DNA of 12,500 nt from Salpingoeca rosetta (Eukaryota > Opisthokonta > Choanoflagellata > Craspedida > Salpingoecidae), in the NCBI RefSeq assembly GCF_000188695.1, contig NW_004754893.1:184932-197431 (forward strand). The letters are read 5' to 3'. The position numbers were made by a program, and so were the translations under genes. Under the pieces are notes generated by a model. It made no database searches. It saw only the letters and a program-made list of their open reading frames with translations, and was not told the origin of the DNA. Below are positions 1,426 through 4,014 of this stretch, one piece after another (the first letter of the stretch is position 1; every line of letters starts with the position of its first letter).

Positions 1426-4014
1426 TCCCTCCTGCCCGCAGAGGGTGCTGGCAGCTTTGGGCCGCACGGCGTCTCTGCCGCGTCCTTCTCGCGCGTGCGT
1501 GTTCCTCTTCACGTTGAGGCGGAGAACCTGCGTGCAGCCGTGCTCAGCCTGACGTACGACCCGGCCCTCCTTGCGCTGGCCACGGTGGAGCTTGGCTCGG
1601 ACGTGCAGTTTGCGTTCCTCGACTTCAACGTGCGTACGCCTGGTGAACTGAGCGTGTTTGTCGTCATCCCCGGCAATGCCATCACCAGCGACGACCTTGA
1701 GCTCGGCGTGGCCGTGTTTACCACCCGCAACCTCACCACCACCAGCCCGCAGCTCTCGCTCGGCGGCTCCGTGGTTGAGGTGGACGCCAACGGCAACCCG
1801 AGCCTGGTTGAGCTTGATGCCACCACGTCCTCGCTGTTTGTGGAGACCACCCCGATGATGATGACACGTCGCCGACGCAGCAGCCTGACAAGCGACGGTG
1901 CTGCCGACCTTGAGCTTGACGCTGCAGCCATGGTTGCTAACACGCTTGCCCGCCGTCGTCGCAGCGGCCCCCGCGGCACCCTCACGACGGTGCTCGCCAA
2001 CCACCCGACCTTTGACATGAACGGCGATGGCGTGTTGGACGTACTGGATGTGCTGATGCTGTCCGATGTGTACAGCGGCCGGCTGACCGAGAACGACCTT
2101 GCAGAGGGCGCAGACGCGGACACCAACAGCGACGGCATCGTTTCCTTTGACGACGTGTCCTTCCTGCTGTCTTTGGCGGCGGGTCGCCTGGTTGCGCTGC
2201 GGCGTGTGGCCGTCACAACCGTGCAGGCCGCAGACTCCGATTGCATGCTGTCCTTCAACGTGAGCGTGCTGCTGACCAACATCACCCTGTCCACCCCCGA
2301 AGCCGACGACACGCGCCTGTATCTCGACGTGGCTGGAGTCGCCTCCAGCAGTGACTTTGATGCCACCTTTGCTGCGGCCTCCACTGCCCCTGGTCCGAAC
2401 TTCAAGTTTGTGCGCATCCCGTATGCCCGCACCAACAGGACGGAGGACACGGGCGCATACTTCCTCCAGGCGTCAACACCGCTTGCCTCCAGCGACCAGC
2501 TTGGCGTGAGCGTGCTGCAGGTTGATGGCAGCGGCGCGTACAACTTCCACACGCGCCAGGACATGATTGTCAACAACACGCTTGATGCCTCCTTCGACGT
2601 CGACGGCACCAACGTCTCCCTCTTCCTGCCGTTTGGCTATGCGCCAATTCGTGCGTTCACCAACACGATGGACACGCCCACCTGTCTTGCGCAGCGCCGG
2701 CCCGTCATCACCGACTTCACCCGCCCTGACCCGGATGCCATGAACGTCGTTGACGGCTACCTCTTGCTGCTGGACTGGACGGCGCCACCCACGCCGCCCA
2801 ACGCCATCACGCGCTACTTTGTGCAGTACCGCGACCTCAACGTCACGGGCGCGCCCGTGATTGAGAAGAGCGTGGATGGCAACACGCTGCACCTTGACCT
2901 CACGGACCAGATCCTGCCGTATCACACATACGAGGTGCAGGTGCAGGCCGAGTTTGGCAACCGTCGCAGTGTCATCTCCACACCCGCAACCGCGCAAACG
3001 CATCAGGTGTGTGTGTGTGTGTCGTGTGTACTGATGTGTGGTTATGTGTGTGTGTGTGTGTCTTTGCACTGTTGTGTACTGGTGTGTGTGTGTGTGTGTG
3101 TGTGTTTGTGTTTGTTTGCAATAGACGCATCGCTTGTGTTGTGGCCACTCGTCCTGCTGTTGCTTACACCCTTGTGATGAATCGCTCAATTCTCCATTTA
3201 TCTGAACTCCTCCCCCCTCCTCCTCCTTTGCTTTGCACCTGGCGTGTGCCCTTCGTTTGACTTTGCCCTGTACTCACGCGATGTTGTGGCCAACACGTTT
3301 AGGACACGCCCAACATGCCACCGCAACTTGACGCCATCGCCGTGATCAACGCCACTGCGGTGAATGTCACGTGGACGCCCCTTGATGAGACTGACCTCAA
3401 CGGCGTTGTGCAGTATCTCGTGCTCGTGCAGCGGCTGGATGATGAGCCAAACGCCGACCCGAACGCGCCCAGCCAATTTGTGCGCACGGTCGACCACCCC
3501 GCATCATCAATCGTGTTTACCGGCCTCGAGGAGAGCGTGAAGTACAACGTGACCATCCAGGCGCGCACCAACGTGGACACTGGCTTTGCCATCTCTGCCA
3601 CAGAGTTTTACCTCCCTGCAATTGTGTTTGAGACGGATGATGCACCACCTGACCTGCCACCGGCGGTGGTGTCCATTGTCCCTTCAGACACGTCATTCAC
3701 GATCACCTGGGAGGCGCCCCCTCCCGAGACGCACAACTCAGACCTCGTCGCCTACCTCGTGCGTGTGCGTCGTGCCGCCAACACCACGTATGCCGATAAC
3801 ACAACCATCACGGACGCTGACTTTGGTGGCGCTGACGACTGGCACGTGTTCAGGTACAGTGCGCAGACATTCACCAAGGATTTCACCACCCTCGAGAGTG
3901 GGGACCCGCTGCATCCCGCCATTGTGTACGAGTTCCAGATGCAGACGGAAGGCAGCATGTCATCTTTGCTCAGCCCATGGTCCGAGACCTACACAGTTCG
4001 CCTCCTCGAATCAG

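Follow-up and report, generated by a model that had tools for sequence, protein, structure and literature searches.

A recurring cohesin, basic-site and dockerin module in choanoflagellate receptors suggests a cut-and-held ectodomain

The 12,500-nucleotide stretch of the Salpingoeca rosetta genome analysed here (the window) holds exons of PTSG_13149, a receptor tyrosine phosphatase gene whose ectodomain carries a cohesin-like domain, two furin-type basic sites, a dockerin-like domain and a third domain. Judged by its sequence, this part of the ectodomain is one copy of a module that recurs in choanoflagellates. We consider it probable that a convertase cuts the linker between cohesin and dockerin and that calcium-loaded binding of these two domains holds the receptor halves together. 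A cohesin-dockerin clasp is of bacterial type, and such contacts are among the strongest measured between proteins; the module would represent a cut-and-held receptor with a new lock.

Cohesin and dockerin in a receptor tyrosine phosphatase

The window gene combines an FN3 ectodomain, a transmembrane segment and tandem protein tyrosine phosphatase (PTP) domains: Pfam and the reading of the exons give six matches to FN3, a single transmembrane helix and a pair of PTP domains; the public record P0006 likewise carries fn3 and PTP by Pfam. A sequence-only reading of the window had placed cohesin-like and dockerin-like modules in the ectodomain of an FN3-type receptor phosphatase, and this was borne out by leave-one-out profiles, by the calcium loops and by the fn3 and PTP matches; its coordinates and its spacing of about 50 residues were likewise correct. 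The duplicated DxNxDGxxxxxD pair that it described is exact in both loops, DMNGDGVLDVLD (nucleotides 2014-2049) and DTNSDGIVSFDD (nucleotides 2119-2154), as in type I dockerins (PF00404).

Matches of the window to the Pfam families themselves were weak and did not reach the cut-offs. In the 1,000-aa exon, Dockerin_1 reached 21.4 bits against a cut-off of 22.9 (E 3e-4), and in the 453-aa module it had E 0.004. Cohesin (PF00963) reached 17 bits against a cut-off of 24.1 when a 163-aa piece was scanned (E 0.007) and had E 0.037 in the 453-aa module; a scan of the whole exon that allowed matches up to E 1 listed no Cohesin. EF-hand_1 and Dockerin_1 tied when a 97-aa piece was scanned by itself (5.2e-4 and 5.3e-4). 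Stronger evidence came from profiles built from paralogous modules (16 for cohesin and dockerin, 15 for the third domain), with the window row removed after alignment. Searched against the 161 open reading frames of the window, they matched the window frame at aa 495-598 (cohesin, E 1.2e-6), aa 672-736 (dockerin, E 2.3e-5) and aa 709-895 (third domain, E 2.3e-16), and the best of the other frames had E 0.82; the third-domain match starts inside the dockerin, at nucleotide 2125.

In searches of the PDB, the paralog cohesin profile (window included) found cohesins, the best being 4ums_A (E 3e-8), and the dockerin profile found 1ohz_B (E 6e-8), ranked below serine protease-named chains (8x3a, 9e-9) and above calmodulins (1.3e-5). 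Given the leave-one-out and PDB results, the cohesin and dockerin matches of the window are, at the level of sequence, more than chance. With phmmer, the window's cohesin stretch alone gave no PDB match at E 10, and its dockerin stretch alone best matched 2y3n_B, a dockerin (E 2e-5), followed by troponin C. The third-domain profile gave no convincing PDB match (best E 0.6).

That reading had named a non-cohesin fold and a canonical EF-hand protein as outcomes that would overturn it, and neither occurred. The modelled cohesin of a related module was placed among cohesins by VIA-align, in rows that cover model residues 9-160 only, with the dockerin outside. A canonical EF-hand protein was rejected because the paralog profile ranks dockerins above calmodulins and the loops stand behind a cohesin.

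Recurrence of the module and its basic sites

Across the 54.4-Mb assembly that contains the window, Pfam Cohesin was found in at least 16 places, all over the cut-off, and all 16 reported cohesins were followed by one or more basic sites, a dockerin and the third domain. The usual module opens with an NLxPAxGDVDLG-like lead-in and closes with this third domain, of about 170 residues and without known relative. Together with the window, C4, C30 and C5, the loci examined hold 20 modules, in addition to a twin of the window gene, C17. Basic clusters were two and separate in 14 of the 16 cohesin places and single in C17 and C3b. Pfam Dockerin gave 17 matches at E up to 10 and was reported for 7 of the 16 cohesin places; two weak matches, in C1 (E 0.22) and C14 (E 1.1), were not placed in a module. 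A Pfam scan of 17 modules at E 0.1 detected a cohesin in 16 and a dockerin in 10, the other dockerins resting on the paralog profile and visible loops, and the dockerins of two relatives reach 33.6 bits against PF00404.

Between cohesin and dockerin, the window carries TRRRR↓SS and ARRRR↓SG (arrows, predicted cuts), two RRRRS sites in the spacer that the sequence-only reading had not mentioned and that both fit the furin/convertase substrate motif R-X-[KR]-R in a flexible extracellular stretch. Over 17 aligned modules, with 18-25% identity to the window, no column is invariant apart from three arginines in the second site and four dockerin-loop aspartates, at the first and last position of each loop. 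We surveyed the linkers, 34 to 97 residues long, of 28 modules (20 from the window genome and 8 from P0002-P0005), counting each run once. RX[KR]R occurred in 26 of them, as two or more runs in 23 and as a single run in 3. This amounts to 50 runs per 1,560 linker residues, compared with 12 per 45,709 remaining residues of the same proteins, a 122-fold enrichment; the naive binomial p is 1e-62, but the modules are related, so the weight rests on the ratio and on the alignment. With this same-protein control, chance or composition as the source of the basic sites was rejected. The genome also contains convertase-like genes, P_proprotein being over the cut-off in three places, with S8-like stretches recognised by eye beside two of them.

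The module is carried by diverse proteins, including cadherins (C6, C23b and C30), an EGF-repeat protein (C23a), a protein with EGF and weak TNFR matches (C3b) and one long frame that holds three modules as well as TNFR repeats and a PDZ domain (C8). TMEM132-type Ig domains were over the cut-off in 6 of 10 stretches scanned and below it in 2 more, and were also found in P0001 and P0003-P0005. A homology search with a long query found four among 2,470 candidates; with the 17-module alignment as query, 7,997 candidates were scored and no match reached E 0.001, the candidates being limited to proteins of about 250-790 aa. Versions of the first exon from two other sources, P0008 (49% identity) and P0009 (39%), keep the cohesin, the basic sites (RRRSA, VRRAS and RARRS in P0008; RRRRRS and RVRRS in P0009) and the dockerin; both end, by eye, at the same exon border as the window exon and contain no PTP exon. 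In the EukProt transcript P0005, the module belongs to a seven-transmembrane (7TM) receptor (7tm_2, E 5.8e-19) in which Pfam gave no GPS or GAIN match at E 0.1; the module thus stands where adhesion G protein-coupled receptors (GPCRs) have their self-cutting GAIN domain.

The C17 twin (P0007) has an ectodomain 97% identical to that of the window gene across 2,090 residues, ending just before the membrane. A different transmembrane helix follows, and the tail behind it, about 200 residues long, contains tyrosine motifs (VYAEL and SPYEVI) and gave no phosphatase match; the two genes look like a paired receptor. In exon 1, 20 of 1,002 codons differ, and none of the nine amino-acid changes falls in the linker or the dockerin. 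C3 and C16, on separate contigs, carry another two module genes that are almost the same as each other; in the stretch compared they differ at few places, of which about half lie in the loose linker. At C2 (246500-262500), an open frame of 23,021 aa holds three module copies.

A proposed clasp and competing readings

We infer the following course of events. In the Golgi, a furin/kexin-type convertase would cut one or both basic sites, leaving an N-terminal piece that ends in the cohesin and a membrane piece that starts with the dockerin. The calcium-loaded dockerin would then bind the adjacent cohesin, so that the cell displays the cut receptor as two chains clasped without a covalent bond. 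The halves may later be parted by force, by low calcium or by a ligand, which would alter adhesion and possibly also signalling through the attached tail, here two phosphatase domains.

The sequence-only reading had suggested calcium-dependent self-association, in cis or in trans. A cis clasp is favoured by the dockerin in the same chain at 16 cohesin places and by the AlphaFold model of a related module; the layout departs from that suggestion in that furin-type sites split the two domains, so a clasp would keep a cut ectodomain together instead of only self-associating. The P0003 cohesin-linker-dockerin model has a pLDDT of 76 and a pTM of 0.73, with linker residues 160-185 under 50. Since we estimate a pTM of about 0.5-0.55 for two freely hinged domains, the relative placement of cohesin and dockerin looks fixed in this model. 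Domain-distance correlation over 24 modules was highest for the cohesin-dockerin pair (r 0.76, against 0.52 and 0.60 with the third domain).

Cut ectodomains kept together non-covalently are known from the Notch heterodimer, GAIN/GPS receptors and SEA domains, and GAIN and SEA cut themselves; the window module is alike in this cut-and-held design and differs in its folds. In bacterial cellulosomes, the cohesin and the dockerin belong to separate proteins or, where one scaffoldin carries both, do not bind each other, whereas the choanoflagellate halves neighbour each other in one chain with protease sites between them. Animal LAR phosphatases are not known to have a cohesin-dockerin pair. LAR-type (IIa) receptor tyrosine phosphatases share with the window receptor an FN3 ectodomain, one transmembrane segment and tandem PTP domains and, as described in PMC8711739, are cut by furin-like enzymes at an arginine cluster of the ectodomain, a penta-arginine, with the subunits staying non-covalently bound, as we predict here.

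Several points weigh against cutting and clasping. Both are predicted from sequence and models. In two of the 28 modules, the linker contains weaker dibasic forms instead of a strict RX[KR]R (SRRRD and RVHSRRS in P0005, ARREA and VRRAA in C5), and three of the 28 have a single run. RGRR stands within 70 residues behind two of the five dockerin-less TMEM132-type cohesins of P0002-P0004 (P0003 266 and P0004 292), and basic sites therefore also occur where no dockerin follows. The site counts are non-independent, the modules being related (C3a and C16a are nearly identical, and P0003 and P0004 are 92% alike in one module), and the linker bounds were set with profiles built from most of the modules. 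The AlphaFold model of the window module, from a 7-row alignment, is poor (pLDDT 39.7, pTM 0.33), so the claim about the fold rests on the relative; three of the five P0003 models were poorer as well (pLDDT 58-63). Correlated distances are also expected of any co-inherited neighbours.

If the sites were cut and the cohesin and dockerin of a module did not bind, the N-terminal piece would be shed as a soluble factor, which we regard as unlikely. The conserved element is the furin-type sites, and LAR E-subunits are found shed too (PMC8711739). Shedding, however, leaves unexplained why a cohesin and a dockerin with calcium-loop aspartates flank the sites every time and why the P0003 model suggests a fixed placement, and the domains stay even though the linker varies between 34 and 97 residues.

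Alternatively, the receptor might not be cut, the basic clusters being surface patches (for glycan binding, for example) on an intact adhesion rod in which cohesin and dockerin make an internal domain contact. RRRR by itself is no proof of cleavage, and the strict motif is missing from two modules; the others nevertheless keep R-x-[KR]-R, the form that convertases recognise, at one or two fixed places with the enrichment given above, in a genome that has convertase-like genes, and we judge this alternative improbable. A trans arrangement, in which the cohesin of one cell's receptor binds the dockerin of another's in calcium-dependent cell adhesion, appears similarly improbable: cutting would leave both halves as free ends and cadherins are among the carriers, but the partner lies 34-97 residues away in the same chain, where local concentration favours cis, all 16 reported cohesins sit in modules, and only the weak C1 and C14 dockerins, of 17 matches at E up to 10, are unplaced. 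That disulphides hold the halves, with the cohesin-dockerin contact secondary, is very improbable. In its favour, a shared cysteine column precedes the cohesin in 9 of 17 modules and the dockerin in 11 of 17; against it, the module has only three cysteines in the window, two of which, the C-terminal ones, fall in shared cysteine columns of the third domain, and only two in C27 and C8x.

The cut ends might also act as interchangeable plugs and sockets, with cohesin-ended and dockerin-started pieces recombining between receptors of the same cell or of neighbours; we rate this extension of the clasp as quite unlikely. Were it true, the roughly 20 modules of one genome, on cadherin, TNFR, EGF and phosphatase carriers (7TM elsewhere), together with a twin receptor whose ectodomain is almost the same but whose tail bears tyrosine motifs, would allow surface receptors to be assembled combinatorially, in a plug-in system that resembles the cellulosome and stands at the root of animals.

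If the clasp that we favour is correct, animals' closest relatives have receptors that are cut yet stay clasped, as those of the Notch, LAR and adhesion GPCR types do, but hold them with a different lock, and the module would be a test case for the origin of such receptors. It would explain the persistence of cohesins and dockerins in choanoflagellate adhesion proteins and point to a switch in cadherins and phosphatases that responds to calcium and force. The human TMEM132 cohesin gains a wider context, as relatives exist with a likely partner in the same chain.

Cohesins in holozoan adhesion proteins (choanoflagellate and sponge) and in human TMEM132 have already been reported (PMC6030884), and the available part of that paper names neither a dockerin nor a furin site in these proteins. 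The TMEM132 family and the choanoflagellate cadherins coherin, lefftyrin and hedgling are among the closest known systems, and module carriers often have TMEM132 Ig domains. The TMEM132 order described in the same part is a conserved region, a cohesin and three Ig domains, whereas Pfam detected no TMEM132 Ig domain in window 1-1440 or in P0006, and we do not assign the window receptor to that family. According to PMC12716839, a GAIN domain is present in almost every choanoflagellate adhesion GPCR, in contrast to the module-bearing P0005; the main text of that paper mentions no cohesin, dockerin or TMEM132. In the literature searched, we found no account of a cohesin-furin site-dockerin module; earlier work may mention dockerins, and absence in print is unproven.

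Layout of the window gene and neighbouring features

In a homology search, the window gene was identified as PTSG_13149 with 100% identity across the 541 residues searched. Its product has 4,108 aa and is recorded as 'LOW QUALITY PROTEIN: hypothetical protein', with the UniRef name protein-tyrosine phosphatase. Four exons were read in the window, with GT/AG borders and phase kept; together they give 2,936 stop-free codons. Frame +1 stays open from the first base up to the GT donor after nucleotide 3006 (Table 1).

Table 1. Features read in the window
Feature	Coordinates	Strand	Evidence
Upstream ectodomain	1..1440	+	no Pfam family; TMEM132-type Ig domains at this position in many paralogs
Cohesin domain (profile core 1483-1794)	1450..1866	+	leave-one-out HMM E 1.2e-6; Pfam Cohesin E 0.007, below cut-off
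First basic site RRRR↓S, directly 3' of cohesin	1867..1878	+	columns conserved in at least 90% of 17 modules
Loose linker between both basic sites	1879..1950	+	
Second basic site RRRR↓S (RxRR), before dockerin	1951..1962	+	alignment R184, R186 and R187 invariant in 17 modules
Dockerin, two calcium loops (2014-2049, 2119-2154)	2014..2208	+	leave-one-out HMM E 2.3e-5; Pfam Dockerin_1 E 3e-4, below cut-off
Third domain of module ('RFV' domain)	2209..2685	+	leave-one-out HMM aa 709-895, E 2.3e-16
First FN3 domain	2764..2985	+	Pfam fn3 E 3.2e-6
Exon 2, FN3 domains	3303..4014	+	GT/AG boundaries, phase kept
Exon 3: more FN3, transmembrane segment (~6890-6952), PTP domain 1 (7511-8206), most of PTP domain 2	4278..8944	+	
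Exon 4: end of PTP domain 2 with HCSAGVGRTG	9178..9602	+	

PTP domain 1 contains both WPD and HCSAGVGRTG. In PTP domain 2, HCSAGVGRTG is kept and WPT replaces WPD (window 8807 and 9211), so domain 1 is probably the active one.

On the minus strand, window 11825-12499 matches the Pex14 N-terminal domain below the cut-off (E 6e-4) and is probably the start of another gene. CA/TG repeats lie at intron ends (window 3007-3090, 4015-4070 and 4225-4270), with a long one 3' of the gene at about 11360-11500.
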